Shown one piece after another: positions 2,366-60,435 of a DNA stretch of 64,000 bases (the stretch's first letter is position 1; every line of letters starts with the position of its first letter). A program made the translations under genes and the position numbers. The notes under the pieces were generated by a model that was given only the letters and a program-made list of their open reading frames with translations, was not told the DNA's origin and made no database searches. Origin of the DNA: Asterochloris sp. CNOR1 (Eukaryota > Chlorophyta > Trebouxiophyceae > Trebouxiales > Trebouxiaceae); contig OZ017760.1 of NCBI GenBank assembly GCA_963969365.1, forward strand, positions 434,001 to 498,000, given 5' to 3'.

Positions 2366-5300
2366 ATGGTCACGTCAACCATCAAAGTCGACATGCTTTT
2401 GGCTTTGGTAGTGCTTGCTATTGCAGCCACCCCATTGTCAGCCCTCATTCCAGGGGACTCTGCCCCAGGTGCAGTCTTCCCCCCAGACCAATCCAATGTG
2501 ATCAGGATGTGAAACAGCATCAGCCGTCTGCAGGGCTGTGTCTGCAGACCCTCAGTGGCCGGTTTGAGGTCAATGCTTCCACCACAGATCAGCTTCCCCT
2601 CCTGATCTATGTCTATCAGGGAAATGATGCTTCTTCCAGGTATCTGGCACTCTCACACTCAGAGGGTCAACCATACCATACGCCTTGCCTGCATTCTGAG
2701 TGCATAAATAATGCAACAATTGGCAAATCGAGTCAGGAGGTTTGCTGCCTCTGCACCACTGCAGGTTCATGTGGCAGGATGCAGCAGGTGTTCAGCAGTT
2801 TATTTCAGCAACACCAGAGCGGGCTCACTACCTCATGCTCAGCTACTCAGGCAAATTGATTTGGCAAGGGATCGCAATACTCTCTGTATCAACGCACCAT
2901 GCACAGCATCCTGTGGCAGCAAGCACTGCGCACAAACGTTGCCCCATGCGCCCCAGCAAAGACATTTGTTGCTGCACTCCCCGGAGAGAGCTGCATCATG
3001 GGACACATCCCAGCAAGCAACTGCCTGAGGACCTGACACAGCAGAGGCCTCCCCGGCCCTTGAAAGCATGAGCACCCCACATCTTGCCTGGCTGGCTCTG
3101 CAGATGATCCTGCGGGTGACGCTCACTACCTGCAGGAGCAGGTCCTGCACAACCTGCCCAAAACAGGGCAGGCTGCCACTGCACTGGATCGCATGCACTT
3201 TGCCATGGAGCCTGTCCCCCAGGGGTGGCTCTCAGAGCTGCTGGAGGCCTGGACCAGCCCCCGTAAGGTGGTGCACACAGCGGGTGAGACTTGCCCCAGA
3301 GGGGACATGCCGCTGTCCCAAGAGTGCGGGCTGCGTGAGTCCAAGGAGGAAGCAGCCTGGCTGTGCTGGTCGAGCATCATCTTCCCCTGCAGCAGACTTG
3401 AATACAACCCCCTCCAGTCTGAGCTGTGGGCTGTTGCAGCAGGGACAACAGGCTGAGGCTGTGCTGCAAGCAGTGAGGGCGTTTACTGGCTCAATGCTGC
3501 CATGCAGGCTGCAAGACCCTTCAGCACTGCATGGCATGTGTGAGAGGCTGCAGTGCCACTGACGACGCAAGGCTGCGGTGCATGCTGTGAGGATCTCTCA
3601 GGTCTCTATGACACAGCACGGCTGCTGTGCAGGTGTTGGCACTGGCAAGAACAGTCTTGGGGTGCCACACGACTGGCCTTGAGGGCTTGTATGCGCAGCC
3701 GCTGACTGACCATTTTTTGAGGCTGTCATGCAGGCAGTAGTAGCTTCAGCATCTGACTGTGCATATTGCCGAGTTCAAGCCTGCTGTGCTGTGGAACAGT
3801 CAAGGCTTTGAGTACCTGAATAGCGTCTCTGGGGAGCTGCTGCACGGCTGATTGCTTGTATAGCATTCACACGGTGCCAATCCTGGCCTGAGATGGGGGG
3901 CTAGCAGACCAAGGCTGCAGTCCAGAACACAATGTCATAAAGCTGTGACTGTCTGACCAACAGATGCAAAGCTGAGATGCAGGCAGCGAGGGCTTCGAAC
4001 GCCTGGACAGCGTGTATGGCTGGTTGCCCTGGCCTGAAATGGTCTTCCAGGGCCCTATACCCCTTCAGCTCTTCAAGGAGCCCTGCCACAATTCTGCTGC
4101 TGCTGCTGCTGGGTGCTCCCCTGGGAGCCTGCCCTGCCATAGCGACGTGGCGGGCGTTGTTGCTCTGGTGCTGCTGGAGCAGCCAGCTTCCAAACTTGGC
4201 GTTGGAGATGGCTGCTCCTTTGCAGCCATGATCTCCAATGCTCAGGTACGCCCCTGTGTATAGGGGAGGCCGTTGCAGATATACTTATGTGTGCTGCTGA
4301 TATGGGTCTCTACTGTGCACCATGGGGGACCAACCCCTGCCACTTTGACAACACATGCGCTCCTGCTAAGGTGCTGCTTGATGAGTCTTCCATGTGTGCG
4401 ACTTCATGGTGACCTGTCTTGACACCGGCAGGAGGTGCTTTCAAAACTTGCAGTACAACTGCATTGAACATGTCAGCAGTCTCTGCCTTCTGACTCGTGG
4501 GGCCTGCGCCAGTGATCTCTGCAGCAGTGCCTGGTGGCCATGTCACCTTCATTGATTCATCTGTTTGCTGTCCTGCAGGATCGCGGTGCTGCGGCTGTCA
4601 TCTTTGCAGCGGCGCCTGGGAGGGACATCGACTTGATCAACTGCACCTCACCTACCGAGTGCACGCTGCCCCTTACCATCCCAGCCACCATGATCACACA
4701 CAAGGCTGGCCAGAGCCTGCAGGTGCGGCATGCAGGTTGTCTTTGCCTGTGGAGGTAGTGGCTGTGTCGTTGTGGCGCCATAATCACCTTGAGGCTGGCC
4801 ATAGCCTCGGCTCCCTTTTTTGTTCTGCCTGTTGAACAGGCCAACTCAGTCACATACAAGGATGAAACACTGGTGATTGAGCACAGCGACGCACAAGGCT
4901 CTTAGGGCAGAGGCTGCAGTGGACTTTGAGTGGCAGGACAAAGGGGCCTTTAGTGCAGCTGCCTGCAAATACTTGTGCTTGGGCTTGGGAGGCAATGTTG
5001 AGGACAGCCTGGACTGCTTATGTCAAAGCTTGCATTGCAAATGTTTCCCCCAGCCACGGTCCCAAACTGTTGTCAGGGCCAAGGCATGGCCTTCATCAGG
5101 CATCGCTCATTCATTGCTAAGCCCAGCCTGCAGCGCACTTGGCAACTGCGCCCTCTGGCAGGGGTGGTTGCCTGTAGAGGTTTCCCTTGACAGAGCAGGC
5201 CTTTCTTGCTCGGCAGCAGGTGCGCAGCTTCATGACTGAGTCCCTACTGCTGTGCAGGCTGCCCTCCTGGCTCAGGGCCACCTCCAAGTGAGCTTTGAGG

Positions 5301-8300
5301 AGCAGCAAGTGCAAGGGTTCTATGCTGGCATCGATGAGAAGGGGCGGCTCTTTGAGATGGGCTGGACCAAGTGGCCTACGCTTATGCACCTGGCCTGGCA
5401 GGTGAGGGACACTTGACACTGCAGGTACGGTTTGTGCAGGCTGCATGCGTGAGACACACCGTCCAAGGCCATCGCCAAGCTCGGCCATGGGTACTGTGCA
5501 TGTACAGTATGCTGAGTCATGGCGCCCTTTTGGCATGAACCGGACATAGATTGTGCACCTTGCCTGGCACGTGAGCTCTGAATGCTCTGACCTCCAATTG
5601 TGACAATGTTTTGTGTGCCCCGCAGGCTCAATGGCAAGAGTATCTGCACCACCTCTACCACAATCGTAGCAGGCCGGCGCTGGAGGTACCTGTCTTCACA
5701 AAACAGGTGTGCATGTGCGACTACCTCCAGTGTGTGCACAGCCAGAGCGGTGCTGCAGTGCACTGCAAGGGGCGCCGACTTGTTGTCGCGCCATTGGAGC
5801 CCACATCAGCAGGCACGCTTCAGAAATGCCGGTCCTCACAAAGGAAGATCGCGGGGTGCACGCTTGCTGGCAAAGGAAAGAAAGAGCCCTGAAGGTCCCT
5901 GGGGCCAGCCATTCCAGTCCCATCTGGCCATTGCACATCTGTCTGCAGTTTATCTTGTCAGACGGGCTTGTCGCGTACCACTGAAGGCCAGATTGGCAGG
6001 CGTGCCTAGAGAGGGTTTGGTTCTTTAGAGGGCATCTGCCTGTTCTGCTGTGCCTGCACACCTTGAATGGTTTGCTGCAGAGCTCAGACAGCACATGGGC
6101 TGGCTAAAGGTGGAACCCATGATCCGTTGGAGGCTCCCTGCTCTGCCGGCACAGCCATATAGTGCCTGCTGTCACATGCCCTGCGCCGCAGCCCGGGTGT
6201 GCTTCAGTCCTGGGATTCCACCATGACGCTGCTGCTCATGTACACTCTGGCGACACAGCTTCCCATGTAATCTGTGTGGACGGGTGCAGAACCTGAGCGG
6301 CCCTGGGCTGACAACAACACTGGAGCTCCCTGCGGTGCACACCATGCAGTCCCACAACATACTGGAGCTCGACTTTCAGCTGGGCTGTCCCGGAACTGTA
6401 GATGCTGACTGGTGAGCCCTGAGGAACATGTCCAGCATTGCAGGGTCATGGCGCTTGCAGGCACGCTCAGCAGGCTGCTGACGGGCAGCTGCAGCCAGGT
6501 GTATGCGCAGCTGGCGAGCTGCAGAGGCCTGCACAGCCACAACAGCTTCAAGGAGGCGGCTAGCCTTGCTTTCCTTGAGCAAGGGTAGTGCAAAGGTGTT
6601 CTGCATGCCTATTTGCCTCCTGAACTGTGCACGGGGCAGGACCACGGTTCCCTCTTGCAGAGCACCTTGCTTCCGTCATCTGGGTAAGCCCACTCAGGTC
6701 GACTCTTTCCGCAATGCAGCCCCGTGTGGGACCACGTGGTGCAGCTGTTTGTCTGCTGCAATGACAGCAGCCCAGCCTGCCAGCCCTGCCAGGGGACCCC
6801 TTGGGCAGCCACACCAGATGTGGCAGGAAGCCACAGCCTCTCTCAACAAAGCAATGGAGCCAGTGTGGGAGCTCCCCTGTGTGGGCCAGAGCTGGGGCGC
6901 TGGATCACACCCTTCAGGTCTGCAGACCTGCTGTGAGCACTTCTAGGTGGACTTCAACATTGCACTTTTTGCTGTGTCATCCCTTGAGCGCAGTCTTCCA
7001 GGTTGCGGCAGTCCCTGGTGCCGGGGAGGGTGCTCATGATCAAAACTGGTGCTGACTGTCTGCTCTGTGTCAGCATAGTTGTATAAAGCACACTTGCACT
7101 GAGATCCTGCATAGAGGACACCGCAGCTGCCACCTAACACAAGCTTGGCTCATTGTGGCAGGCGGCACATCAGGCATTTGTTGACTTTTGAGCACCGCTG
7201 CTGCCTCACACAAGCTTGGCAGTATGATCATCTTGAGCTGGATGATACTGTGCGTGACTGCTGCCTGGCCTGACAGTCATACGCGGTTGCTGACAGGGGC
7301 TTGCCACAATGCTCTGCCGCTGCGCAACGACTGCTGGGTAGGCAACTGCTTTGCACTGCTCGTGCACATTGAGGAACTTTTGGCCAGGCATACCAGGCAG
7401 CATTGTAACATTGGCACCTGACTGAGAAAAGCCACCTCAACGGCTGCAGGCCTCCTGCAGAGGCTGCCACCGCTGCCTCCTGACACGAGCTGGACTCCAT
7501 GGCTTCAGGCGGCGCATCGGGCAGTGGCTGACAGACGTCACCCCACTGCTGCCCCTGCTGAGCAGCAGCAAGTGCACCTTCCACCTGCAGACTGTCTCAT
7601 GGGCCCTCACCTGGCAGCCCTCCCTCACCCTGCGCTTCCGCAACAGCACACATGCTGCCGTGGCCGCTGAGGGGGGTGGTGACTCTCAGCTTGGCGGCGA
7701 CCCAGTCAGCGATGCAGGCCTGGGGTTGAGGCCTGAGCCTGCCAACAGCACCCTGGGGGCTTCTGCACTACGCTCTGTGGCACAGAATGTGGCTGATGAG
7801 TGGGGCAAGGGCGGCTCCTCGGCCACAGCCCGGCGCCTGCAGAAAGCTGCCATCAGCAAGCTGCACCTGGAGCCTCCAGCCTCCTACACAGAGCCTGACA
7901 GCAAGGTGCCCCATGCACACAGCAGAAACACGTTGGTGGCCCTGTTCAAGGGGGGCACCTTCGACGCCTTCTACAATAGCCAGGGGAGGGAGGTGCAGCT
8001 GGATACCCCAAAGACCTACTCAGGCGCCCTCCTGGAGGCTGTCATCACAGGTCAGCTCCAGGTTACTCTAAGCTTGCCTCTTGCTGCCTGTCGCTGCTGA
8101 GCAGGAGCTTGTTTGATGTGCTGAGCCCAGCTGGCCCTGCTTTGTGGTCAGTGCCTTCTGACCTGGAGCCCTGGCCTGCTGTCTGCTTCATCCCTGTTGC
8201 TGCAGCACCTGCCAATGATATAAGGGGCATCATCTGCTGCCAGCCATCTCGATTGCACACCGTGCTGCAGGGCATGGCAGTGACGAGTTCCAGTGTGCCG

Positions 8301-8929: not shown

Positions 8930-9092
8930 TGGCATGTCCTGCTGTAACATCCTGCCTTACTGGAGCAGGGTGCATCCAGAGATGTTCAGTGGGACTTGCA
9001 AGGCAAGAGCTGAGCGCGCGGTTTGCGCTTCAGGTGAAGTCGTGTCAGGTAGGCTTCGAAAGACCCCCTGCCCTGCATAAGTGCAAAAGGCC

Positions 9093-13812
<4,720 letters not shown>

Positions 13813-13913: not shown

Positions 13914-16900
13914 ATGGAAGTAGATGTGCTACAGACCCGTGCCAATCAACTGAGGCAGAGTCTGCGATGGAGCAAGGTGCCCTGAACTGCACAGGCCACT
14001 GTATACGCCCCTCCAGCGATCCAAAGGAGTCTACAGCTTGGCCCTGATTGTTTACAGGAGCTCACAAAGGAGGCATGCACAGTTCTGGACTCATATTGTG
14101 CCCAGGTAAATGTGCTGGACAACCTGTTGGCCCCTGTGGCCTCTAGGACGCTGGCACTCAGCCAGGCCCGGCAAAACATCAAGAAGGCACGGGAGAGGGC
14201 TGAGGAAGTGCTGGATCATCTGGACACCAGCCGCAAGGTGAGGGCTGGAGCTGCACCTTGGCTTGAGGGTCCTCGAAGGTCGTCACATAGGTAGAAGACT
14301 GAGCTCAGCAGCTGCGCAAGGCGTCGTCCTGCTGCATGGCGAGCTGGGGGCAGTAGTGTAGCAGTCTGCGTGATCAAAGACGGCTTGCTGCAAGCTTCTA
14401 AAGTGGGAAGTCAGCTGCAAGACGGCCAACCCCCGGGCTCCTGCTCCTGACAGGCACACACATGCACCACTGAGTGCCTCTCTCAGTGTCATTATATCTC
14501 AACTGGCAAGGATTGCGCTGGAGGCATGTCTTGATGCCCAGCAGATATCAGAAGAGCTGCAGTCCTGATGCGGAACACAGCATATTGCCCGCAGGTAGAG
14601 CCATGCATAATGCAAGGCCCCCAGGCAGACCTGCAAAGCTTCATGAAGGCTCTGGACCGCTTGGAGGCAGCCATCAGCTTCCTCCTGCAGCACAGGTCAG
14701 TCGCTGCGGGATGCAACGGCAGTGCTGTCACTGCAGTCTTGCCGGCAGCATCCAGGTTTTGAATTCCCCTACAAAGGATAATATGATCCAGCATATTGTG
14801 TAAAAGGCATCTTGAGCTGGCAAGACAATCCTCAGGGCTGTGTCTTATTGGCTACCCTGCATCCTCTCAGCCTGTAAAGCAACTGAGGCTCAGGATTGCC
14901 CTAGTTCATTATAGCATGGACATGTCAACTGATAAGCTGTGCCAAGATCATGCTGCATCAGGCTTCACCCTCATGCCATGTATGTGATAGGCTCCAGGAG
15001 GCGCTGAACCCCTGCCACCTGACTTTCTTGCACCCCAGTTGCCTCAATGCCCGTGCAGCAGTCTGGACACAGCGGCAAGTTCCTGCACTGCGCCACAGCG
15101 TCATGCCATCAAACTGTGCATGCACCCTCTTGGACCCTGTTTCTGTATATTTGCCCACAGACAGCAGAGAGAGACCTACATGAAACCCGCCACAGACGTG
15201 GGCAAGGTCGTGTACAGCTGTGCCAAGATTTATTACATTCCACAATTGTCTGATTCCCTGCAGCAGGCAAACATGGCACAGAAGCAGTGCTACCTGTGCA
15301 TGCACCCTTGCAGTGTCTTTCTGTCTGTACAGGAGCCTGAACACAGCCGAGAGCGCCCTCAAGTCAGCAACAGACCTGCGCAAGGACGCCATGCAGCTCT
15401 GCCTGGAAGACTTCATGTCTGGGGTGCGCGACCAGAGCGCCCTACCTGCGCAGCTGTTCACCCCTGGGCAGTCCTATGGGGCTGAGATGCAGCTGGAATG
15501 GCGCTCGCCACAGGCAGCTGCAGGTAAAGGTCCCAGCCTGCGCTATCAGCCAGTGTGTAGCACTAGTCATGCCTTGTTTGCCAGTTGTTGCCCGTGCAAT
15601 AGTGACGGCGCAGTGCTTCCCCCTGGGCAGCCCTACACGGCTGAGCTGCAACTGGAGAGGTGCTGGCCATAGGCGATTGCAGGGAAGCCAGGCCTGGAGC
15701 TTGTGTGCTGGTTGGCCGCCTCCTCCTGGCAGCGCCTGCAGGTCGGGGGGGGGGGGGGGGGGGGAGAGGCGAAGGGGGTGGGGCGAGGGGGGGCTCCTCA
15801 AAGTTGCAAAGGCTTGAGCCTGCAGGCACTTCCTGTATGCACAATAGAAGGGCACTTGCTGCCTGTAGACAGTGAGACGGCAAATGAGGGCGCCAGCATG
15901 GTTGGTGGGCCAGCCCCGGCTCCCGATAGGCAGCAGCGTCTGGAGGTGGTGCCTGCAGCCCAGCTGGTGCGCCTGCGCATGCTGGCAGAGGCCATGCTGC
16001 GCAGTGGGGACCATACCTGCTTCAAGGTGAGCTGTCTGCAACTGGCAATGTGCACAGCAGGTACCACACCTGCACACGCTGGCAGCGGCCATGTTGCGCA
16101 ATAATGGCTGCTTGAGTCTAATACAGGCATGTCCAGAGTACCTGCAGTGCTTCGTGAAGCTCTCCACAGGACTGCCTGTGCCCTGCATGTGCAATGGACC
16201 CCAGTATGGAGACCTCCAACATTGTGCCAGGCTTTCTTGTGTCTGTCCTGACTGCAGTGATGCTGAGTGCTACTCAGCTGATCTGCTGCAGGCCATTGTT
16301 GAGGTTCATGCGAAGCTGGTTGAGCAGCTGCAAGGCGCCATGCGGTCAAGTTGCACCGGCAGGTGTTGGCCCAACCATTGAAATGCCGTGTGCCGCGAAG
16401 TCAGTGGAGAGGTGCTGTACAATTGTTTCTGCAGACTTTAATGAGGTGTCCCTGGGCTACTCCCTTCTTGCAGGCCATCTATGAAGAGCCAAGCTGAGAC
16501 CATGTTGTTCTCACGGGCACCCTCAGCATGTACCTTGTGCTGCAGGCCTTCTGCGAGGTGCAGCGGGATCTGATTGAAAAGTGCCTGGCCCCCATGGGGG
16601 GCCAGAAGACGTTGGACGATGACTTTGCCAAGATGAGCTGGCCAGTTATGGAGGCCAAGATCAAGGGGTGGGTGGGGCGGCAGTGCTTGGGGAACTGATC
16701 CTGCTGCATCGCACAGTTTGGGCACCCAGACACAACATTGGTGGCATCACTCTTACGGGTAACCCATGGAGATTTCAGATAGCAGCTGCAGCTACATGCA
16801 GCACTGCAGCAGGGCGCCACAGGCTCGGCACTCAATCGTCACTTTTGCAGAACTCCTGACTGGCAGACCGCATGCTGTTCAGCTTCAGTCTCATGACTCC

Positions 16901-24200: not shown

Positions 24201-24486
24201 TCTCCTCTGATAGGGCTGCAGAGATATTGACTATGTAAGGGCAGTGGCCCCAGCTTGTGGCCATGTCCCACAGCTGCGACACATGGCAGGCAGACTCTCT
24301 GATCCAGCATTGCTCCAATCATCGATGGTCCAGAATCCAACTCATGCTGTATGCGCAATGATGCATGCACAAGGATGTATATGCATTGGGACGGGTGGGC
24401 TCTCTGATCGAAGCCCCACCTTTCTGCTCAGCATTCTCCTCTGGGTAAGGGAACTTTGGGTCAGAGACCTTCTGTGGATCAGCCAT
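21248..24486 (-). CDS. Short-chain dehydrogenase/reductase of the glucose/ribitol dehydrogenase-like group
   Basis: NAD(P)-dependent oxidoreductase; the substrate is not known. The closest recognisable group is the plant seed/stress 'glucose and ribitol dehydrogenase' family. Nine exons, high to low: 24486-24420, 24177-24095, 23500-23307, 22913-22844, 22243-22161, 21931-21865, 21726-21682, 21602-21504, 21427-21248; all phases match, giving 295 aa. The N-terminal extension of about 50 residues ([19 protein letters not shown]...) is typical of that group and does not look like a transit peptide. Cofactor motif TGGDSGIG is at residues 55-62, NNAS at 133-136 where NNAG is the common form, and catalytic Ser186, Tyr199 and Lys203 (YASTK). 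The C-terminus [14 protein letters not shown] is family-typical. The gene is tail-to-tail with Exo70, 181 bp apart, and head-to-head with SDS22. Confidence 0.93.
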
Positions 24487-45700: not shown

Positions 45701-48700
45701 TCCGGGAGATCCACATGGCAGTGCTGTGCTGCAGGGCCTCCTCCTTCTGCTTCAGCGCAGCAGCAGCCTGCTGAGCTGCAGCCTCAGCGAGATTGTCTGG
45801 CTGCACACCTGCAGACAGTGCAACCCAGTTCTTCATGCACCTGGAGATGCCCTCAAAAGGAGGGCTGTGTGCCAAGCCTATCTCAGCAGGTCACCCTTGC
45901 AGCAAAGTGTGCCAGATCGATTATTCAATGAGGCACCTCCCCCTCTCGAAGGGGCAGACCCTGGTCAGATTTGCAATGGAATGCATGCACCTGGGTCCTA
46001 AGCCACAGCTCCAAGCGTTTCATCTAGACAAGGGTCTGTTGCTTGTACTAGATGGCCCCAGAGCGCCAGGGACTCACGTTGCTGGGCCAGGCGCTCATTG
46101 ACCTCCTTCAGCCTCAGGATCTCCTGCCGAGCAGCCGCCAACAGGCTGTCCCTGCCAGGGGCCTGCCCCATCCGTGCCAACAGGGCACTGCTAACTACTC
46201 CCTCAGTCTGCACTGCCACAGAGGCGTTTGCCACTGCTGGCGCAGGTTGCTGTGTGACAGCTGACCGCTGAGCTTCTGGGGAATGGGGCCTGGTAGCAGC
46301 AGGTGTGTCCCAGGATTTGGCATGCCTGGCCGCTGCTAGTGTGGCCTCTTCAGCAGCAGAGGTGTGGTGTGCCTGCCTGCTGCTGGCATTGCTGACAGGA
46401 TGCCGCTGACGGGAAGTCTGGTGGGTTGGGCTGGTACCAGACGAGCCAAAGGCACTGCCGCCGCTCGAGCTCTCAGCACTGCACAAAGACTCACCCCTTT
46501 GTGACTGGCAGAGCGGCAGGGACACAGCACGGCAATGGCCTGTTCAAGCCACAGGATCAGGAGGCATTCAATGGTGACTGTGAGACATGACTTGTTTGCC
46601 TCGTTTCAATAGGCGACCCAGGCAATGATGAACATCAGGCAGGCGACAAGGAGGCACACAGGCTCACCCTGAGCAGTCATCGCCGCTGAACCCCAGTGCT
46701 GCCTGCCAGTCCGGCTGAGACTGCCTGCACCGCCGCCGCTGCCTGGCCCCTGTGCGACGGCTGTGCTGGGCCGCCTCCAGCTGGGCTTCAAGCATCATGC
46801 CGCGGGACTTCTCTGCCTCCAGCTGCTGCCGTAGCTGCTGCACCTGCAGGCAGGCAGCGGCAAAGGCAGGCTTGAGAGCAGTTTGCTGAGCAGCACACCT
46901 GAGGTGCTGCTCCAATTAGCTACAACTTGAAGTGCTTGGGTGCCCACTTCAGATGTGACAGCCCTTGGCCTGGAAGCAGACCGTCAAGCTGATGATCGGC
47001 TGCCTTCAGGTGTGCTCATGGCTGCATTGAGGCAGCTGCCATTGTGAGTGACTCATGCAGCGGCACGGTGGCTGCACAGGCCGCGCTGCAAGGCTAGCAG
47101 GGCTGCCAAACGCCCTTGGTCGGCAGGGGCTGCAGTCTGTGCCAGCACAGCCCACTGTTGAGTCAACAAACAATGCAATCGCACATAAGATCCCACCTGA
47201 TGCTGGCTGCCTGCCGCTGCCTGAGCCACCAGCTGGTCCGAATCCTTCAACTGGTCAAGTTGCTGCTGCAACCTTGCCACAGTGGTCCTCTCAGCCTGCA
47301 GACCAGCCAGTGCTCTGCTCAGCTTCCCTGCTGTGGCGTGGCCTGTGCAAAGGCAGCCCTGCTACTACCTCATAGAGCAGCCACAAGTGCGCAATTCCTT
47401 GACTTGGGCTGACTCAATGTCTGCAAAGCATGTGGTAAATGTTTTTCTCATGCGTCTTGCACACTCACAATTTGCGCCAGCTGCTGCCTTGCAGGAGGTT
47501 TGCAGACCACAGCCTGTCACAGGTCTGGCTTGCAGTGGCGCTGGCACACAAGCAGTTTGCCACAGCAGCTGACCTGCAGTGTGGCCTCCCACTGCTGGCG
47601 CTCCTGCTGGGCAGACTCGCGCGCCTGGTGCAGCTGGGCTTTGAGCGGGCTGCTGCTGGCAGACTGGCGCAAGGCAGGTTGCCTGCCCCTGTTTGGGCTG
47701 ACGTTCTCCACGTCAGTAGCACCTGCAGATGGGCATGCCTGGCGCCTCAGCCTCCTGACTTGAGGACGCTGAACGCCGTCAAGCTCTGCAAACACAAGTC
47801 CCCCTGGACTGTCACAACTCCAAATGCGACCAGCCGCTGACCGCAGGGAGCTTGCTGATCCAGGAACATTGCAGGGACTGATGATGATGCACAAAAGCAG
47901 CCTGCAGCATGCCGCCCTGCTCTCTCACCAAGCATCCTGCTGCCTGCGCTGCCGGCAACTTGCCGCCCAGCTGTCTGGGGGCTGCCCGCCTGTGGATGGC
48001 TGCCAGCAGGTGACCTGGCTGCTGCGGGACCTGTGCTCTGCCTGAGCTGTTCAGTCTGTGCCTCTGCAGCCTCTCTGCGCTGGCGCTCCATGCGGAGCTG
48101 CCCCTGCAGCTCCTGCATGTGGGCCTGAGCCTGGGCCTGCACCGCTTGGAGCTCCTGGTCATACCTGCAGGCACAAGCAGACCGCTCATATTCCTGTAAC
48201 TGTGCTGCAGCTTCGCGGTGCCAGGGGTCCAAGCGCAGCTGCCCTAAAGCTCTTGCATCTGTGGCTTGGCCTGGACCTGCGCTGCCTGAAGAGCAGACCA
48301 GCAGGTGAGAACAGTGAATCCAGCACATGTTGGCTTTAACGTCTGGCATGGGCGCTCACTGCCTGCAGCTCAGGGGCTGACCTGCAGGCACAGGCAGGCT
48401 ACCAAGCGTCTGCTGAGCTGGCTGGGCACTTTATCGATGGCAGGGAAATCACGGCTGGTGTGTGCACCAGGAGCTGTAATTGCTATGTCTTGGGGGCTGA
48501 CGTGGAGGGACGCCACCATGTTTTGGCTCAGCCAAACCCAGCCACAAGCTGTCCCAGCCATCCCATGCAGCTGACCAACAAGCAGCCCACGAGCAGGACT
48601 TGCCCATACGCAGACTGCACGCGTAGTGGGGCAAGATGACTAGCTGTGAGGGGCCAGGCGAACCACCCATGTCACATTCCAGCGCTTGTGCACTCCACGC

Positions 48701-51700
48701 CATGCTTGCAGGTTTCTGAAGGTGATGCTTGCCTGCGCGCCGTCTGCATGCCGTCCTGCGAGTCCAGCTCAGCAATGCGGGCCTCCTGCCAGTCCATGTG
48801 CAGCCGCGTGTCATGCAGCGTCGCCTCTGCCATCTCCCTGCAGAAAGCAAGGGGTGGGACGTGACTTGCCCCCAGCTGTCGGTAACGCTGCAAGGGGTCC
48901 AGCTGCAGTCCAGCTGCACATGATGATGTTGGCATTGCCATAGGCCAGTGCATCATTGATGGCACCTCAGAACCCTTGGAGGTGATGCTTTCAGAGTGAA
49001 GTGCAGCCAACCGTGCAGCCAGGACCTCCCCCGTAGCCTCTACGCTTCCATGTAGTACAGCAGTGCCGCGGTCACTGGCCTCATGGGCTCTGATTAGAGA
49101 GGTGTATGGTGAGATTTCTGCAGGGTGCCATCTGAGGCTGCAGCACACCGGGCAATCTCTGCTACCGCTGCAGCCCACTACTGTGTCTGGTGAACACTGC
49201 ATGTCACGACCTAACAGTGGCAGCTGGCTTCACAATGCTGCTTTGCTTCACTGAGGTGCCTGCCAGCTGTGAGAGGCTGCGGCTCACTAGGCAGCCTACG
49301 CCTCTGCCGCAGCCCTCTGCTTCTCCAGGCATGACATGCAATTTGCTCAGCAGAACAGTGCAGCTGGCCTCATGATGCTATTGTGACTCAGCCCCCAACA
49401 GGTACTCATCAAGTGTGGTGTGAGGCTGCAGCTCACCAGGCAGTTCCCGTAGCGTCCCAGATACTTCTCCATTGGGCTACTTGCAGCAAGAAGGTATCCA
49501 CCATGAAGAGGATAGCTCACCGGGCGGCCTCCGACTGTGCTGCAGCCCTCTGAGCCTCCTGAAGCTGCAGGCGCATCTGGGCAGCCTGCTGCTGCGCCTC
49601 GTGTGCATGGCGCGCTGAGGCATCTGCTTGCAGCATGGCATCAGCCACCGCCTTGGCGGTGTCTGACTTGCCCTGCTGAAGCTCTGCTCTTGCTGCGGCA
49701 GCTGCCTCCACCTGCAAAGAGTGGTGTGGATGTCAGAGGGTTGGGCGCCCCATGCAGCATGCTGGTTGCCTGCCAAGCCTGGTGACACCATACAGGCCGC
49801 TACTTTACCAAGCTTCTGGTCGAAGGCACGAGTTTCCTTGTGATCTTCACAGACAACTATGGCATCTAGAGCTCACTCATGTTGCTAGTGACGCACTGCC
49901 ACCTCTTACACCCAATCAGTCAAGCTTGGCTAGAGGGATAATGACATGGTCAGTTCACAGCCCCTGTGCCGCTTTGCAGCCTACTTTTCTTTGCTGTGTT
50001 GCTGCATCTGAGCACTGTTGCCCCAGCGAAGGCAGTTGATGACATGCAGTTCTTCCAACACTCACGAGCCAGTGCTCAAAAGGAAAGTAGCGCTGCTGCC
50101 ATACTCTGCTGCTCTTGCCGTTGCTGTGCTTCAGTGCTGTGCTGTGCAACACCCAGACCAAGCATGCAAATGGAGTTAGCCTGCATGGGACCACCATATA
50201 CATTGCAGCTCACCTGCTCATTCAGCTTGTTTTCAAGATCAGCCACTTGTCTAGCGCGAGCCTTGCACAGCAGACGGCTCTGAGCCGCCTCCATGCTCAG
50301 GCGCTCCCTCTCTGCAGCTGCAGCCTGCAACATGGCTGATTGGTACATGGTTGTGATGCTTGCGTTTCAGAGCTGGCAGACATGGCAACACCACAGGGAT
50401 GGGCACACAGTCTGAACCTTCAGAATCTCTAACAACCCTTGATTGCTGAGCCTCCCTCAAGCAGTTCAGGACCCAGATTGTCTGTCATTGCAGCATGATG
50501 AGGCACAGGCTTACTTGCAAGCCATGTAATTGCAACCATTGCTGCACACCTGCTGCTGGGCCTGCATCTGCTGCTGCAGCCTGGCTTGCTCAGCAATGGC
50601 CTGCTGCTGAGCGATGGCCGCGGCTGCAGCAGCTGCCGCCTGAGCTTTGGCCTGCTCCTGCAGCTGAGCAATCGTGCCGCCTCGGAGAGCATCCAGGTCA
50701 CCGTGGTGCAGCTGCCCCTGGGGAAAAGGCAGAAATGTTCTCAATGCTGCCTCAGATGAGCAGAACAGGCAGGCAGGCAGCATGTGCAAAGGTGTGGATA
50801 ATTGCAGTCAGAGGCGGCTGGAGACATACATGCAAACCACCATTCGTGATGGTTTCGAGCGAGGCAGACCCTGTATCTATACTGCAGCCATGTCCTGCTG
50901 CTGAGGCAGTTGAGGTGGCTCATGCACAAGCAGTCCTGAACAGGACTGTACCTGCAGTAGAGCCATGTCCTGTTGCTGCTGAGCCAGCATCTGCCCCCGC
51001 TCTGCAGCCTCAGACTGGGCTGCGTCCCTGGACCTCTGCAGCTCTGCCACCTGCAGGCAAGAGACACACATTCTGGCATCGCAGAAGTGTGTCGTGCAGC
51101 AACTTCAAGCAAGTCAGGCACAAGGTTTAGCAGGGAGACCCAGCATAGCCATGTGCAGGCATACCAAGCGGGTAGTGCAGCACAAGCCAAGCACAACATG
51201 CAGACAACAATGTCTGTGGGCGCCCTGTGAAGTCCCTAGTGTGTGGCCCACCTGCTGCTGCGTGTAGTCCAGAGTCTGCTGTGCCTGCTGCAGGGCAACT
51301 CGCAGCCCAGACACTGTCGCATGCAGCCTCCCATCCTCCATGCTGGGCAGCAGGGGCGCCAGGAGGTCCCCCCTGCTGCCAGCCGGCCTGGTTGGCAAGG
51401 AGGGCAACACGGCCTCAGGTGGCGTCACAGCAGCAGTTGCCAAGCTGCTGTGCCCGCCTGTGCCTCCTCCCTGGCTGGCTGCAGGCTGCCCCTGGCGCAC
51501 TGGGCCTGTAACTGAGCCAGGGTTGGCTGCCGGCGTGTATGGGGAGGCAGGAAGCTCACCAGCCGCCAGACTGCCAGCAGGCCATGGCGCTGCCTGGCTG
51601 TCAATCGGGGTCTGAACTGCAGAGGTGGCCCTCAGTGAAGTGCTGGCAGCCTGCTGTCCTGAGCCAGCACCCCCCTGGGACCCTGACATGTGCTCAGCAC

Positions 51701-53006
51701 TGATACTCCTGGCAGGTGCTTGCTGTGGATCGTGACTCCTGCCATTCTGCCAGACGCTGCTGGGGGGCTCCACGCTGTAGCTCCAGCCTGCTTGCCCCTG
51801 GGGGCCTGCCCTGTGCTGCTCCCGAGCGACCCTGGGATGCTGCTGCGGGCTCCTTGTGCTCTGGTGTTCAAAGTTCTGCTGCCACTCGCTGCCCCCGCTC
51901 TGATGCAGAGAACCCTGCTGATGGCTGCCCTGGGGCTGCTGAGCTTGCTGAGCCCAAGCAGGCCCAGGCAAGGTGAGTGCTCCCTGCTGCAATCCACTCT
52001 CCCTGCTCTGGTGCGGAGAGCCCTGCTGCTGACCGCCCAGGGACGGATCAGTGTACTGAGCTCCAGGCGTCCCAGCAGCCCCAAGCAGCGCCTGCGTGCT
52101 GACGGGCTGTGCAGCATTGGGCTGCCCAGAAGCTGTCAATGCAGTGGATGCCCCTGCATGAGGGCTCAGTGCCCACGCCGCAGGCTGCTCCCTGCCACGC
52201 TGCTGCAGGCCTGCCGAGGGCTCTCCCTGGGCAGGCTGGGGTGTCAGGGAGCGGCTCCTCACATACTGCCCTGAGTAGGAGCGCAGGCTGTCAGGCAGGA
52301 TGTAGTGGTTGAGCTTGGGCGTCCCCCTGGTGCTGCATGGGGGGGCCACCTGATCTGGGCGGAACACCCAAGACACAGGGGACGGGGCTGCCCCTGCAGG
52401 GCACCCAGGGACATGTGTACAGCCAAGCTTGACTGCTGCCGCAAAACATGATGAAGGACTGCAAGCTGCTTTACAAATGGAAGCCACAGTGGCACATGCA
52501 GGAGCCTGAAAACGCATCACAACATGCTGCAGGATGCCTCCTATGATGCATGTCTCCCACCTGGCAATGATGCTGCAGCAGCAGAAACCGCTGAAGGAGG
52601 TGCCTGGCCAATCCCTGCAGCCAGTCAACACCAGGGCATCGTTGTGAAGGCCAGGGTGCCAAATCCTTTCCTGGACACTGTGGTGCTGCATGTTTGGCAA
52701 GCACTTTCTCACCTGGTGCTGGCAACTGCTGCAGTCTCCTGGCAAAGTCAGCAGCATCCTGGGGACTGTGGAGCGCTGCCTGACGGGCTGCAGCATCGAA
52801 GATGAACTCAACCCCCGACTCATTCATGCGGTGTTTATTCAGTGCCTCAGCTCCATGCGTAGACCTAGGGACTCAGAGATCACTGCGGTCAAACAGAACA
52901 AACTTTGACCCACCTGCTGCTGTGCAGGGCTGTTGTTGCTCTCAGCTTCAAAGGGTGTCAGCGTCGTGGAAGGGGCCACGAGCGTTGCAGCACTCTTCTG
53001 CGCCAT
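39705..53006 (-). CDS. Very large coiled-coil protein with multiple QT (LC8-like) motifs; not recognised
   Basis: About 25 exons, read high to low: 53006-52914, 52845-52713, 52393-51252, 51050-50952, 50717-50550, 50324-50214, 49711-49521, 48837-48733, 48164-47929, 47785-47574, 47295-47197, 46843-46668, 46478-46078, 45808-45698, about 45098-44976, 44791-44687, 44496-44290, 44164-44060, 43791-42833, 42620-42546, 42070-41858, 41804-41063, 40686-40504, 40114-40023, 39831-39705. Phases agree everywhere except the join near 45698/45098; the 3' end is open. The product has about 2,070 residues. It has a short ordered-looking N-terminus (FIFDAAARQAALHSP), a Gln/Ser/Pro-rich exon of 381 codons, long coiled coils, then disordered stretches with a folded-looking patch (LLIKHHVKSGKVLTTDMNAQ). 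Six QT motifs suggest dynein light chain binding. It could be a centrosomal, basal-body or cytoskeletal scaffold. In-frame ATGs at 53006 and 53081 are both possible starts. Confidence 0.75.
40190..40485 (-). repeat. Tandem decayed copies of the acceptor edge of the exon at 40114
   Basis: The real exon edge on the plus strand reads GGGCGTCCTGTACAGCAGGG (40109 onward). Related sequences follow near 40232 (GGCACCTTGTGCAGCAGAGA), 40301 (GGCATCCTGTACAGCAGAGA), 40428 (GAGATCTTGTACAAAATAGA) and 40470 (GAGTATCCTGTACTAATTTC), spaced about 40-130 bp. They fill most of the intron. Confidence 0.7.
40725..40895 (-). repeat. Two decayed copies of the exon at 40686-40504
   Basis: Within the exon the plus strand reads GGCAATGTGCAGGGTCCTGT then AGGGCGATTTGGCCC. 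Copies near 40745 (GGCAATTTGCAGGGTCTGGT, then GAGCACTTTGGCCC) and 40852 (GGCAATGTTCAGGATCCTGT, then CAGGCACTTTGCCCC) follow at about 105-130 bp spacing. Neither copy keeps the reading frame. Confidence 0.85.
41880..41925 (-). repeat. Decayed copy of the acceptor edge of the exon at 41804
   Basis: Plus-strand CTCTGCACTGGTGCCAGCAG then CCTGGCCCTGG resembles TTCTGCATTGGCTCCAGCAG then CTTGGCCCTGG at 41778-41810. This copy overlaps the coding exon 42070-41858, so here the duplicate is itself part of the gene. Confidence 0.6.
42165..42205 (-). repeat. Decayed copy of the acceptor edge of the exon at 42070
   Basis: Plus-strand CAACAAGGTCTTGCCCCCCT then GCAGAAGCAGCATGACATGC echoes CAGCAAGATCCTGCCCATAC then GCAGGGGCAGCATGGCACGC at 42050-42092. 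It lies about 110 bp upstream in gene sense. Confidence 0.8.
50878..50912 (-). repeat. Decayed copy of the donor edge of the exon at 51050-50952
   Basis: Plus-strand ACTGCAGCCATGTCCTGCTG followed by CTGAGGCAG resembles CTGCAGTAGAGCCATGTCCT then GTTGCTGCTGAGCCAG at 50952-50987. It lies about 75 bp downstream in gene sense, inside the intron. Confidence 0.65.
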
Positions 53007-54226: not shown

Positions 54227-57200
54227 CTAGGAAGTCGACGAAAAGGGGGTGTAGCCTTGCACATCTATGGTCAGCTGCTCAATGCTACCTGCAGAAACAA
54301 CAGGCAGCAAGTTTATGGCTCCAGTCATGCTCAGGCAGCACCCAGCCCAATATTGTTGAGCCTCATCATAGGACAGCATCAGTCAAAGACCTGCTCTCAC
54401 CAATAGCACCAGCGAGGCTGACACAGAAACAAATGACGTTGATGCCTTGCAACCAGAACCAAACTGGGGAGAACCTCTTGTAGTTATTCCTCTTGATGTG
54501 CCTGGATTCAAAGGTCACGCTGTCAGCAACTTGAATTAGGCCTGCGATCAGCAATGCAAGGGCCATATTGAGCAGTGGGGCCAAACTCACATGAGCACCG
54601 GGAAAAAGATGGTTAGAGGCCAGAACTGCAGGGTATGAGAGAGGGGAGCCCTGAGGTTGATGTTGCAATTGCAGGCTTTGCCAACGTGCTCTCAGGTACC
54701 CCAAAACACTTTGCCTGTTCTCAGACATGGCAATTGGAACACTTGGCTGCTGACTTTCCAGGCATGAATGCAGACTGCATGCAGCCAGCACTGTGACAGC
54801 CCTGAAGCTGCAGCATGATAGCCTACAGAGACACAGCAGCGTGGCTCACCCCGAGGGCACCCAGGAAACCAACAACATCGTTGAAAAATGGAATCAGTGC
54901 TGCAATACATGTGACCTGGAAAACAACAAAATCTCATGAGCAGAGGTCCAGCCAACGAGGCTCAAGCAGACAGACCTAGCTCTGCACACGCACCACATCT
55001 CAGATCTTAGCCTCATACAGCATGCAATGTAGCTTGTGCTCTCAGTCCATCAGGCCAGACACACCTGGCAATGATGCAGCATGCCTGAGCAGGCACATGT
55101 GTTGAGACAGCATCAACACAGCACAGAGCCAATGTGCAGGGCATGTGAGAGTGACATTGCACTCACCACGCAGACGTAGACTGTCCGCCAACAAAGTCTG
55201 AAGGCATTCAGGCGCATTATGCCCACCCCTGGGATTTTGACCGGCAGCTGCAGCATCAAGCATGGACTCTTGAATGTCAAGGCTGCCAGCGTGACTCAGA
55301 TCAGCATCACACCATGCAGCACAAGACTAACTTAATGTTGGCGCCCAGCAGGATTGCTGAGGCCAGGCAGTGGCCCCAGAATTGCACCCAGGCACAGTGC
55401 TATGCAGCATGGGCAGTGGTGCCTTGCAGGCCAGTGCTCTTCAAGCTGCATAGCCTGAGCACCACCAATTCAAGTAAAACTGGCCATGGCCGATTTGCAA
55501 ATAGGATCAGCAGGCCCCACGTAAGCAGGGCAGCCTGGTTCCAGAAGCTGGCAGAAGGGACACACATGCGCATGGCTGGAAGGAGAAGGGAGCCGCAGCT
55601 GTCAGCTGGTGACAAGAATTGACTTGACTGCTGTGCACTCACCTCCTTGTGCGTGAAGAAGTTTACGGGAACCTTACGGAGCAGATAACGCTCAACAGCC
55701 CCATACAAAGGTTGCGTCCAGACTTGGTAGGCTCCAATCAGGTGGATGGCAACAGCAATGTTGGCAAGCGCCACGACCCAGAAGGGGTGCTCAAAACCGC
55801 CCCCAGAAAGGATATTGCCGGGCGCTGCAAGACAGACAGACAGGCGCAGCATGAGGCGATGCTATGCCGCAATGTAAAGGCTTGACACAGGTGCAATGCT
55901 GTGTGTCAAGGAGGCAACTCAGACGGACAGGTGCAGCATGAGAGTTGCTACGGCAACCTGGAGAGGCAACCCCTCAAGAGCTACAAGACATGAGTGCATT
56001 GCTCTACAATGTTATGCTGCTCACAGGACATACAAGCGCTGCGTACACTGTATGTGAACCAAGGCACAGGAACGTATGCAGTGCATGACGTATGCCAAGC
56101 CGTGTCAACGGTCAGCCTTGCTGAAGAATTTAAGCGGGGCGATGACAGCTCATGAGGCATAGATGTCAGCAAGGCGCGGCCACGCCGTGGCTCACCTTCG
56201 TTGCCAAATCCAGCAAAGGCGACGGTGGCAATGCTCGCGTCTGCAGAGTAAAGTCTGCCATCACTAGTGAGATGTCTTAACGGATAGACTGAATACGCAA
56301 TGCACTGAGCTGAGGATGAAGCGACAGGTAGTGCAACCATGCTTTTAGCTATTGCAAATGCTCTGCAAGCGCTGCCAAACAGGTGCTGGTCACGGAACCA
56401 CATGACAGTATAATTGCAGACACAGTGCTGCACATAAAGTCAGCAAGGCAGAGCCTCACAGAACATGGTGGTCGCAGTGATACTGAAGCGAGAGGCTTTC
56501 TTCATCTGCTTGGCCTCGCTGTTGCCGGGCAGCGGCTTGATAGTGTCTTGGATCTCCACCTGCAGGCAGCAGGCACAGCTGTATGCGACTGCAGCCTTCC
56601 AGTCAGAAAGCTCAGTAAGTACCCAGACAGCGGAAGGGAGCCCTGCTGCGCAGCTGTGGCAAGCGAAAGGAAAGTCACAGGTTGAAGGGTGCTGTAGCTT
56701 CTATTTGATTGAGAAGCAGCCAGGCGGCACTTACTGCTGTGAGCACTAACAGCTCCCCCACTTCCACGCTTCACAGGAGCGCAAGCAAGACGAGCGGTGC
56801 AAGCACATTCGACTGATGAGCAACAGTGTAGGCGCCCCGCACTGCTGGCATGGATGCAGGGCAGCATGTGTGCGACGCAGCAGCATACATGCCCAGAGTC
56901 TGGGGCAGGGGAGCCACACCACAAGTAACGATCAGCAGCACCCACGCGCAGGCCAGGGCTCACCAAGATGAAACTGAAGCTGAATGCAAAAGCGATAGCT
57001 CCAAGTGCATTGAAAACCAGCCAAACTTTCCCGGCGTGTGTGGTGTCAACGCCTGCTTGAATGCCACCTGCTGTTCCCGTGGGGTGCGGCCCAAAGTGGC
57101 CTGCATGCAAGCATCAAGCATTGTGGCAGCAGGCAGCAGAAGGACAGCATCGCTGTACTGCTGTTTGCTGTGAGGTGCAGCCCAGGAGTGGCCTGCACAC

Positions 57201-60200
57201 CAGCTCAAACCAGACAGCGGCAGCAGGAGGGGCAGCAGGTTCCCTGCGTGAACAGCAGGTCCTGGCATGGTCTGGGAAGCTTCTGTCGTTTGCTGGTTAC
57301 AGTGCCAGATAAGGCGTGATGTGCTCAGAGAGCTGCACCAGAGGTGACTCCATGGCAGCAAGTGGGGAAGCAACTGCTGCACCACTGGAACAAGTCATGC
57401 AAACCAGGAATGTGACACCTGATTGGGCCTGCTTCACTCTGACATCTATTGCTTGTTTGAGCTGTGTTGGTGGACCCTCCCTGGCAGCAGAGCAGAGTGT
57501 GGTTCTCACCTGAAGCCTGGGTGATAGACAGCCCCAGTATGATGAATGAGTACAGGAAGCTCATGCATGCTGAAAGTATAGAAAGGACCCACCTGCAGCC
57601 AAGGCATGTGACATCAATATGTTATGGCTGCTGTAAGACTGCCAGCAAGCCCGGGCCTCTGAGCCTGACTGCCTCAGCAGGTAGCAGCCTCTAACACCAG
57701 AGACCAGGGTTGCCAGCACGCCAGACTGGCTGACAGGTGGTGCCTTCCCGCTGCCAGGTACAGCAATGCAAGCCCAGGTGCACTGGCGCTGCCTTGCTGG
57801 AGCAGGGCAAATAGCGCTCATGGTAATGCAGCACCAGGAACTCACAGGCGGTCCATGTCTGGCAGTTGAGAAAAAAGGATCTGGATGGCCCCAAAGATGA
57901 TGAAATACTTGTTGTTGTTGGTCTGCAGCATGGCAGAGACAGAGGGCTGATTGCACCGCCACCTTCAACAGAGAGCATAGGTTGGGGCAATGGCAGGCTT
58001 TCAGCTGGCAGCGCTTGGCTTGCACGAGATGAACCCATAACCTCCGGCAAGCAGCCCAGGCAGCAGCAGTGCAACAGGACTCTTGAGTGTGCTGACAATA
58101 TGGATGGTGGGCCGTGACCCCCAGCAGCAATCACGCACAGTGCCGGGGCAGTGCTCACCGTGCAAATGGTGGCCCCATCAGGTCCCTGAGCCTCCGCAAG
58201 CTGCCCAGGATTGTTATGGTAGCAGATCGTGTTCTTGGTGGCGGCCATACTTAGCCCAGCTGTGATGGTGTAGCCAATGGAGGTCCCAATAAAGTTTGAG
58301 TACTGCAGGCAGCACAATTTGGGTGATATACCCTCAGTGCAGTAGATGAAGTGACAATGTGCAGGGAGGGAGCGGCTGGCAAGGAGGCAAACAGAGTTGG
58401 CTGTGCACATGACGAGGTGGGCTGGATCCACCGTTGGCGGGATGTTGCATGCTACCAATGGATGCTTGAATGGACATGACTGAGCAGGACGCAGACGCGA
58501 GTCTGCAACTTGCTGACCTGGGCCAGTCCACACCAGAACATGTAGCGAGGGCCTGCAGGCAGGGGCAGGGCTGGTTTCAGCAGTGCAGCATGACCTCAGG
58601 AAATCGCGGCCAAACCTCAGCCACCAGAACCAGTCATCTCCACTGCATGCTGCAGCCGCAGGATGGCCCCATGCACCTTATCACCGCAGCCACCTGCCGC
58701 AGCCCCCTGCCATCCCCACCCTGCCAACCTCACAGCAGGCTGCAGCCTTCGACTTGTCACAATCTGCACAAGGTCTCTTGAGGGGCGCAGGCAGCAGATG
58801 TCACTGCAAAACACACCATGACACTCAAGCCAGCAACATCACAGCTCCCCAGCTGTCCCTATCAACACTGCCTCTGCACACTGCCTCTGCACACTACCTC
58901 TGTAGCAGCAGCACAGCAGAGTACAGCAAGACAGGTGACAACCCCAGAGCTCAAGGGCCGCACCAGCAGTGTACAGCACCTTCTTGAGGGCAGGCAACAG
59001 AAGCCATAGAAATCCCACTCACCAAGGATGGTCCTGACTGCATCCACATAGGTGTAGTTGCGCTGCCCCGTGTTGGGGTCAGGGTATCTGTAGCAGTCTG
59101 CCAGCATCATGGTGGTGTACCAGGTCACGGCGGCAAACAGAAACAGGATGAGGGGCGCTGCTGCCCAGCCAATCTGCAGGCAAACAAGCAGACTATTGCA
59201 CTGCTCACCCCACACAAGCAAAGTGCACTCCACACAAGCATGCTGCTGCACGCTCCTGCGGACAGCTTATTCATCTGCAGGCACACCACTCCACGCCCTT
59301 GCACGTCTACCATGCACACCACTAAAGCATCTCAAAGCACAAAGCTGTCATTCAAGCAAGCCGCCAGCATGTCTGGAGACAGCTGTGCAGCAGATGCTGC
59401 AGGCAAGTAAAATCGGAGGCACTACCAGACAACGTGCAAGTGCTCTGTGGCCTGGCAACATGTTTGGCAGCTTTGTAGACAGAACTTCAGACAGCGGTCT
59501 GGGCCAGCCCAGCTGCCACCACTGCAGAGTCTCATGGGGTCCTGCTGCCCCAGATCAACAAGAGGGATGCCACGGAAGAGGCTGAGTGGACAGTGCTCAC
59601 CTGCTGTGTATCAGCCTGAACACAGCGACTCGGGCAATGACTCACCTGTGCAAAGGACCAGGGCAGGGACAGAACCCCTGAGCCAATGACAGCCGTGATG
59701 ATGTGCCCTGACGCTGTCTTCCAATTGCCTGCAGCAGCAAAGAGCAGTAAAGTTTGTGAGAGATGACCCAGGTAAGCAGTAGAGCAGCTGCAGCACAAAC
59801 CAGAGGATCGCAAAGGCAGCACCAACACCTGCCCTGACATGCCCTTGGCAGCCCAGACACAACAGCTTGAAGCAGCAGCACAGGTGGCCTGCACCAAACG
59901 GTAGCCTTGCTGGACAGCTGGCATAACCCCCTTACAACTCCAGAGCTAGCGAAAGCTAGGGGCTGTGAACAGACATTGCTGCCGTCGTGTAAGTGCCAGC
60001 CTAGATGGCCTTGAGAGACAGCCACCACAAGCATCGTCCCGCAGACCACCAGCCCAGCCCTGCACAAAGCCAGATGGGCCCGGGAAAGCAGCAGCTGCGC
60101 CAAGTCCTAGCTAGATTGTTCTCAGCAAACAGACGGGGAGTTTCACTCAACCTCACTGCATCTCGCAGCAGTAAGGGCTTGAAAAGCAACAGGTGGCTGC

Positions 60201-60435
60201 ATGCGCATGTCCTGGCCACCACCCTGGAGGTGCGCCTATCAGCAGCAGCCAGCGCACCAACCCCCAAGACTCATAAACGGCGACAGCCGCACCTGACCTG
60301 GCTGGGCCGCCACCCCGCAGCCGGCTACTGTCTGCATGTTGACAACACACCTGTCCTGGCTACCACCCCATCGTCATCCAGGGCAACTTTGTTCGTGTCC
60401 CCTTCAGCCACATAGAAGGCTGCCCGCCCATTCAT
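54227..60435 (-). CDS. Amino acid permease of the plant AAP (AAAP) family
   Basis: Proton-coupled amino acid importer with about 10-11 membrane helices. Sixteen exons, high to low: 60435-60351, 59728-59646, 59173-59023, 58552-58518, 58302-58159, 57922-57846, 57592-57510, about 57052-56964, 56559-56460, 56240-56196, 55824-55643, 55247-55167, 54915-54850, 54625-54591, 54501-54401, 54288-54227; phases match, about 472 aa. Diagnostic AAP segments are ARTGNWKTASGHIITAVIGS, VLSLPWSFAQIGWAAAPL, QYSNFIGTSIGYTITAG, FSFILVEIQDTIKPLP, APGNILSGGGFEHPFW, IPFFNDVVGFLGALGFWPLT and the ending GYTPFSSTS. Two exons are only 35 bp. The start is uncertain: the open frame continues upstream of 60435 to an acceptor near 60525, so a further 5' exon may exist. 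The exon 8 acceptor could be 3 bp further upstream. Confidence 0.92.
55910..55955 (-). repeat. Decayed copy of the intron end preceding permease exon 11
   Basis: Plus-strand CAGACGGACAGGTGCAGCAT then GAGAGTTGCTACGGCAACC resembles CAGACAGACAGGCGCAGCAT then GAGGCGATGCTATGCCGCAAT at 55832-55873. It repeats intron sequence next to the acceptor. Confidence 0.7.
57085..57240. repeat. Imperfect tandem duplication in a permease intron
   Basis: GGTGCGGCCCAAAGTGGCCT followed by GCATGCAAGC (from 57080) is echoed by GGTGCAGCCCAGGAGTGGCC followed by TGCACACCAGC (from 57174), with GGCAGCAGG elements after each. Period about 95 bp. Confidence 0.65.
58868..58902. repeat. 13 bp tandem repeat, 2.7 copies
   Basis: CTGCCTCTGCACA occurs twice exactly and is followed by CTACCTCTG. 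It lies in a permease intron. Confidence 0.9.

Follow-up and report, generated by a model that had tools for sequence, protein, structure and literature searches.

Short tandem (internal) gene duplication in eukaryotes copies parts of genes, exon-intron borders included. For intron gain by tandem duplication of a segment with AG|GT, a case is known from potato in which the 3' part of an intron was duplicated together with the 5' part of the exon (PMC3443670, PMC4974935). Small tandem duplications also arise from break repair, when paired nicks or 3' overhangs are filled in and joined; in mouse and human cells fill-in by CST/Pol-alpha-primase followed by non-homologous end joining produces them (PMC8355091). 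Tandem repeats of exons and introns are described for one gene family of Tetrahymena, the LRR genes, whose 90-bp exons are intact and in which ectopic recombination is involved (PMC6564038). A model of border-induced selection on intron length explains why insertions survive between conserved exons, without naming their source (PMC9748784). Here we describe a 64-kb stretch of the nuclear genome of the green alga Asterochloris sp. CNOR1 (C15:434001-498000, hereafter the window), in which introns carry decayed direct copies of the edges of adjoining exons.

The pattern shares features with each of these systems. As in short tandem (internal) gene duplication, the copies are direct and close together, but most of them look old and decayed, they lengthen introns, and hardly any creates one. 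The type of mutation is common to AG|GT intron gain, while donor and acceptor regions homologous in register were found in only one of 442 introns. Break-repair duplications are likewise short and direct, tens of bp and more, and break repair would be a plausible mutational source in our case as well. Small tandem duplications by patch-mediated repair were reportedly shown in rice polymorphism by Vaughn and Bennetzen in 2014. The Tetrahymena genes have intragenic repetition of exon-intron units in common with ours, whereas here many unrelated genes are concerned and the copies are decayed. The survival of insertions between conserved exons fits border-induced selection, a selection model without an insertion source (PMC9748784). 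No ingredient is new in itself, every step being a mutation of a familiar type; what may be new, to be judged against comparison genomes, is how dense and how old the record is. Among the literature matches listed (licensed PMC papers, by title and beginning of abstract), none described this pattern in a green alga, and it could still be reported elsewhere; the passages of the Coccomyxa genome paper with 'intron', 'exon' or 'tandem' do not mention it (PMC3446292). Non-transposon sources of intron sequence are poorly known. Here such a source is measurable: without any relative, one can count the copies, estimate their age roughly and trace them to their source exon.

Every statistic is based on 244 kb, comprising the window and 18 further loci of 10 kb (one per contig C1-C18) from a single compact genome of 56.4 Mb in 21 contigs. 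The G+C content is 57%, and the genes are intron-rich. In an annotation-free blast self-alignment with dinucleotide-shuffled sequence as control, the window contained at score at least 30 51 direct pairs but 2 inverted and 1 shuffled direct pair, and the 18 loci contained 111, 7 and 3, respectively. Together these are 162 direct versus 9 inverted pairs, the 162 raw pairs being reduced to 152 once overlapping hits were merged. Since blast self-alignment misses lags below ~50 bp, an ungapped diagonal scan was written as a second, independent detector; at its threshold of score at least 17 it returned 238 direct pairs, against 12 inverted and 7 shuffled ones, while 50 kb of E. coli gave 4 direct and 1 inverted. 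The strong excess of direct over inverted and shuffled pairs in the window, in the 18 loci and in the second scan, together with the low number in E. coli, shows that the local direct-repeat pattern is real and not limited to the window. Of the 18 loci, 14 hold an exon-intron pair, as do 22 of the 36 gene models that contain three introns or more. This bears out the original prediction, made from the window alone, of same-orientation copies across the genome. Two loci (L002 and L014), each with few predicted introns (9 and 4), had zero repeat pairs at score at least 30 after classing.

The distance between copies has quartiles of 99, 141 and 260 bp; a spacing of 80-250 bp had been noted before as usual. 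In the diagonal scan the lags peak at 60-140 bp; as the lower edge of this peak possibly stems from weak detection of short old units, no characteristic duplication size is claimed from it. Detectable copies account for 6.6% of the bases in introns, 6.4% of those in exons and 2.0% of those between genes. At score at least 24, an edge copy was found in 65 of 444 introns (reverse-complement control, 12). Measured by what can be seen, the earlier statement that introns are built from such copies was too strong. Minisatellite arrays, i.e. several near-identical tandem units, were rejected because the 10 rows of Tandem Repeats Finder in the 64 kb overlap the 48 window pairs in only about three places (2255, 38213 and 39542). 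A search of the window against Rfam gave zero family matches.

For the comparison of exon edges with introns we used an exon-intron hidden Markov model (HMM), self-trained on the same 244 kb, which gave 43 models with 444 introns (median length 258 bp), a donor consensus of CAG|GTGAGC and an acceptor consensus of CTGCAG|G. The acceptor consensus of the predicted introns (window and L002-L019) is strict, with T 0.89, G 0.91 and C 0.97 preceding AG|G, a strictness that self-training may inflate. Only exon bases were compared with the own intron; 854 edges were scored and 34 of 888 left out (exon below 25 bp). At score at least 28, 49 of the 854 edges matched their own intron, against 1 for the reverse complement, 2 for the shuffled intron and 0 for one unrelated intron per edge cut to equal length. 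In the window alone these numbers were 20 of 238 edges and 0, 0 and 0, which confirms that introns hold copies of the exon edges they adjoin. Donor and acceptor sides were equally affected, with 22 and 21 matched edges at score at least 30. Copies from long exons (240 bp or more) were too few for a conclusion, with 2 of 64 edges and 1 of 64 exon middles matched at score at least 24. Introns with a copy are longer than those without (median 407 versus 244 bp, p=3e-8), as expected if copies lengthen introns and equally if long introns give more room. Among 76 exon-intron pairs, 69 have their copy in the intron directly adjoining the source exon (37 on the acceptor and 32 on the donor side), and the median lag is 0.32 of the intron length.

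The alignments do not stop at the splice junctions. Identity extends past 31 acceptor and 23 donor junctions, in agreement with the claim that many copies include splice sites. For acceptor copies it is 0.83 over the first five bases of the exon and 0.86 over the last five of the intron, from where it declines to 0.66, 0.59 and 0.50 deeper inside; for donor copies it runs from the exon into the intron as 0.82, 0.76 and then 0.55, 0.43 and 0.42. A copy derived from spliced RNA would end at the junction, and an origin from mRNA is therefore ruled out. Pairs within exons show a frame bias, since 28 of 41 exon-exon lags are multiples of three (p=6e-6); this holds with lags below 60 bp removed (20 of 32, p=0.001) and in the blast-found set (11 of 18, p=0.02), while the fractions are 32 of 87 for exon-intron and 38 of 96 for intron-intron pairs. 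Mismatches between exon and intronic copy by codon position are 0.16, 0.155 and 0.245, and this excess at third positions is expected with a constrained exon and a freely drifting intronic copy. In-frame stops or frame-changing gaps, which had been taken as general, are present over the short aligned parts in about half of the exon-intron pairs (36 of 76; stops in 6, gaps in 34).

We consider it probable that the pattern goes back to local same-orientation duplication at the DNA level followed by decay of the intronic copy, for the most part long ago. Short segments would be duplicated beside themselves in direct orientation at many sites of the genome, typically ~60-250 bp apart. A duplication inside an exon would survive more often if its length keeps the frame; one across a splice junction would leave the outer site in use, and the extra exon edge would join the intron and decay; one inside an intron would simply make it longer. 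Old pairs would then be recognisable mainly where one member is a conserved exon, giving an apparent concentration at exon edges. We modelled this by a simulation with duplications placed uniformly along these genes, exons constrained, introns free and the same detection. For ages t of 0.2 or less the simulation yields 0.75-0.94 exon-intron pairs per intron-intron pair; this ratio is 2.6 at t=0.25 and reaches 3.4 at t=0.3, and the observed one is 76:46, or ~1.65. Enrichment at exon edges could thus arise without targeting, because the exon preserves one copy while equally old intron-intron pairs decay past recognition, and a special targeting of exon edges would not be needed if the events are old.

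Some pairs show a full head-to-tail structure, and we assume that most events began as such tandems. Plain head-to-tail duplications occur at L008 (121 bp, lag 119), at L003 (62 bp, lag 65) and at L013, where about three units form an array. Of the four pairs that are at least 50 bp long and at least 85% identical, three align over roughly the whole lag or more (133/68, 121/119 and 62/65). The near-full-length set of 15 pairs was selected for being near full length. The single readable clean full-length pair above 85% (121 versus 119 bp) has a junction overlap of ~2 bp. A 404-bp tandem duplication at L012 6184-6987, 81% identical, takes in an entire predicted exon together with its two splice sites, and clusters of mutually similar copies at differing lags (L017 1787-2145 and L013 1982-3721) may record successive duplications.

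Most duplication events look old. Among 56 pairs of at least 50 bp only 4 are at least 85% identical, whereas a constant rate predicts ~36% (~20; p=8e-7). Since loss only thins older copies, the past rate would have been higher, unless copying was imperfect from the start or young short pastes escape the length filter. A fit of simulated ages to the 93 observed pairs with lags of 60-250 bp places nearly all events at t of at least 0.25, and a rough model age would be ~0.25-0.35 neutral substitutions per site in each copy. Limited to t of at most 0.4, the fit yields ~237 intron-lengthening events, equal to 22% of intron bases (bootstrap 17-35%); the oldest class (t=0.5, 1230 events) is not identifiable and was excluded. 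This share is a rough model figure and not a measurement, as the fit is imperfect and the observed alignments are shorter than the simulated ones. It is possible, though we hold it only tentatively, that local duplications of ~100 bp once came in a wave, which has mostly ended, and account for at least a fifth of the intron DNA in this lineage, and that the exons, by keeping one copy in many pairs legible, preserve a datable record of intron growth from a gene's own exons.

Several observations weigh against duplication in tandem followed by decay. A pure tandem model is at odds with the relation of length to lag: the overall median of length over lag is 0.37 and at least 0.49 in the simulation, and the ratio drops as identity rises. 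In the 34 pairs that are at least 85% identical (lag 60-250) the alignment spans a median of 0.24 of the lag, where the simulated ages give 0.36 at the lowest, and among the eight pairs of at least 40 bp and at least 85% identity only the three named above (L013, L008 and L003) are near full length. By the age fit, 69 exon-intron and 24 intron-intron pairs would be expected, while 56 and 37 were observed. Four of the 18 loci have no exon-intron pair, one of them (L018) with 26 introns. A mild preference for junctions is possible, as exon-intron pairs number 76 against 55 under random shifts. In addition, the HMM fuses neighbouring genes, so that part of the 'introns' is intergenic, and at one checked place it had called a decayed copy an exon.

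These lengths give rise to a serious partial rival, in which many events were no full head-to-tail tandems. Instead, short local copies (~20-50 bp) would have been inserted in unchanged orientation at a distance of 60-250 bp, for instance by templated break repair, and would be younger than the tandem model says. Pairs of high identity have short alignments for their lag, shorter than any simulated age yields, and two examples illustrate this: L017 1866/2097 (47 bp, 91.5%, lag 231) and the ABC transporter intron copy at window 33053..33095 on the minus strand, which matches the exon segment 32796-32839 by 91% over 44 bp at a lag of 257 bp with no visible full-length tandem. However, the score cut-off favours short and very similar alignments, so that part of this pattern results from selection, clear full-length tandems do exist, and the constant direct orientation (238 direct, 12 inverted) is unexpected for pasted copies. 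As the main process we regard short pasting as unlikely, though it is the alternative that survives best.

Somewhat less probable still is that exon-intron junctions are preferred targets of duplication, for example through breaks at splice sites. No random shift out of 1000 reached the 76 exon-intron pairs, and 45 pairs contain a junction compared to 33 under random shifts (P=0.008). Nevertheless, the simulation with uniform placement gives an even stronger enrichment at t of at least 0.25, which is of no help if the events are young, and the fitted model without preference already predicts more exon-intron pairs than observed. The earlier view of exon edges as the copied targets is not required, since the apparent preference can be reproduced without targeting if the events are old. 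Copies of exon edges suggest targeted duplication or intron birth, yet the survival of readable copies beside conserved sequence can mimic both.

The original prediction allowed for new introns, which in the model of Rogers arise by tandem duplication of an exon segment with AG|GT; the copies would mark such births. The single intron with donor and acceptor regions matching in register (L008 7327-7701) exceeds an expectation of ~0, and in 3 of the 69 adjoining pairs the image of the junction lies at most 12 bp from the opposite splice site, in two of them at most 1 bp (window 50591/50885 and L008). At window 50591..50905 (minus strand) a 21-bp exon-intron pair has a lag of 294 bp, equal to the predicted intron length, and is a candidate for a weak trace of intron birth. 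A further candidate, for an imprecise intron gain in a predicted gene model, is an exon-exon copy at 41743..41921 (minus strand; lag 110 bp, coding shift 57 bp), whose two in-frame coding copies are split by a predicted 53-bp intron. But the in-register test largely rules out intron birth by AG|GT duplication as a main route, and the median lag of about a third of the intron length means that most copies lie inside longer introns. That the copies generally mark births is very unlikely; the process mostly lengthens pre-existing introns and rarely creates one, so that of the two effects originally proposed only lengthening is retained as a general one.

Equally improbable is that the copies are retained for a function, e.g. 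to adjust splicing as decoy acceptors or donors. Of 39 acceptor copies, 33 still have AG, and the splice-site score exceeds the 10th percentile of real sites for 16 of 29 decoy acceptors and for 13 of 23 decoy donors. However, AG retention does not differ significantly from the 72% of control dinucleotides (p=0.098), GT retention in donor copies (17 of 26, 65%) equals its control (64%), and the copies decay in frame and sequence; among these 39 acceptor and 26 donor copies there was no significant signal of selection to keep or remove decoy sites. An origin from dispersed introner-like elements or from insertions of spliced mRNA is hardly credible, since zero supporting points were found in the 244 kb and two whole-genome DNA queries, none of the 854 edges matched its one randomly drawn unrelated intron at score at least 28 while matches lie in the adjoining intron, the two window queries matched only themselves genome-wide (genome-wide clustering of introns not being part of this test), and identity continues past the splice junction into the intron.

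Nine multi-exon genes were distinguished in the window, where eight had been counted before. Pfam supports seven of eight submitted window proteins (PA plus PNGase-F-like, SerRS, Exo70, short-chain dehydrogenase, LRR, ABC transporter and amino-acid transporter); the first window gene had no Pfam match, and it contains only an intron-intron array without an exon-intron pair. Exon-intron pairs occur in six genes, namely PNGase-F-like (2), SerRS (2), Exo70 (3), LRR (1), the ABCB-type transporter (11) and a coiled-coil gene (8), and the amino-acid transporter is the seventh gene with a copy after exon correction, in line with the statement that at least seven genes are affected. The short-chain dehydrogenase gene (21248..24486, minus strand), which Pfam identifies, indeed has zero detectable copies, although with nine introns only it makes a weak contrast.

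The clearest case is the ABCB-type transporter on the minus strand, whose closest match in the PDB is 7n58, 'ABC transporter B family member 25, mitochondrial'. We take the 7n58 protein to be from Arabidopsis. The exons with copies at 29735, 32796 and 33619 align unbroken to 7n58 over the relevant junctions, so that the copies at these exons fall outside the protein. At the true acceptor and exon start (29735..29822, contiguous in this alignment) three copies lie upstream in the intron, as expected from the earlier claim of several copies beside one edge. Two keep a usable-looking acceptor, 29864..29922 with CTGCAG (73%) and 29981..30026 with TGCAG (80% over 46 bp), and the third, 30084..30172, has lost it (74% over 89 bp). 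The true exon end and donor at 33619..33675, which the 7n58 alignment supports, has intronic copies at 33497..33546 (78%) and 33426..33482 (75%), and the acceptor and exon start at 32825-32857 has one at 32916..32948 (85%). Compared with 7n58, one upstream exon of the model carries an insertion of 11 residues and is possibly mis-spliced. The gene region also contains a perfect 31-bp tandem repeat at 32317-32388 (2.3 copies, 100% match), much younger than the surrounding decayed copies.

On the plus strand, the SerRS and Exo70 genes, both identified by Pfam, have an intronic copy of the exon start 12159-12221 at 11960..12022 (81%) and of the exon end and donor 15448-15527 at 15608..15686 (76%), respectively. 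In the PNGase-F-like gene, also assigned by Pfam, the acceptor and exon start 7453-7532 is copied at 7105..7185 (73%) and the exon end and donor 5382-5406 at 5551..5575 (88% over 25 bp), and in the LRR gene the acceptor and exon start 27215-27275 is copied at 27057..27106 (72%), again on the plus strand. The predicted gene at 3104-8877 (plus strand) joins, according to Pfam, a PA domain to N-terminal and C-terminal PNGase F-like domains. The remaining copies lie on the minus strand: in the coiled-coil gene, 48205..48291 repeats the exon segment 48064-48151 (73%) and 48346..48397 the acceptor and exon start 48129-48180 (75%); an intronic copy at 42144..42206 corresponds to the acceptor and exon start 42034-42096 (73%); and an exon-exon copy at 51876..52075 has a lag of 108 bp, i.e. 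36 codons, in frame.

In the amino-acid transporter gene, the acceptor and exon start 57068-57143 is copied at 57158..57230 (minus strand, 73%), part of which the HMM called an exon, a call we read as wrong. The HMM had taken the decayed copy 57201-57243 for an exon and truncated the next one, and the corrected reading lifts the Pfam match of the fragment from 25.8 to 52.7 bits. Decayed copies with splice-site motifs can mislead gene prediction, and at least one HMM model was affected here. The genome has 27 Pfam Aa_trans matches, the window's own included, and a DNA search of the genome for a close paralogue of this transporter matched only the gene itself. A 149-codon open frame at window 38016-38465 (plus strand) has in-frame repeats of 33 and 66 bp, a coiled-coil-like sequence and a hydrophobic C-terminal tail, and the HMM reads this region as an intron on the opposite strand.

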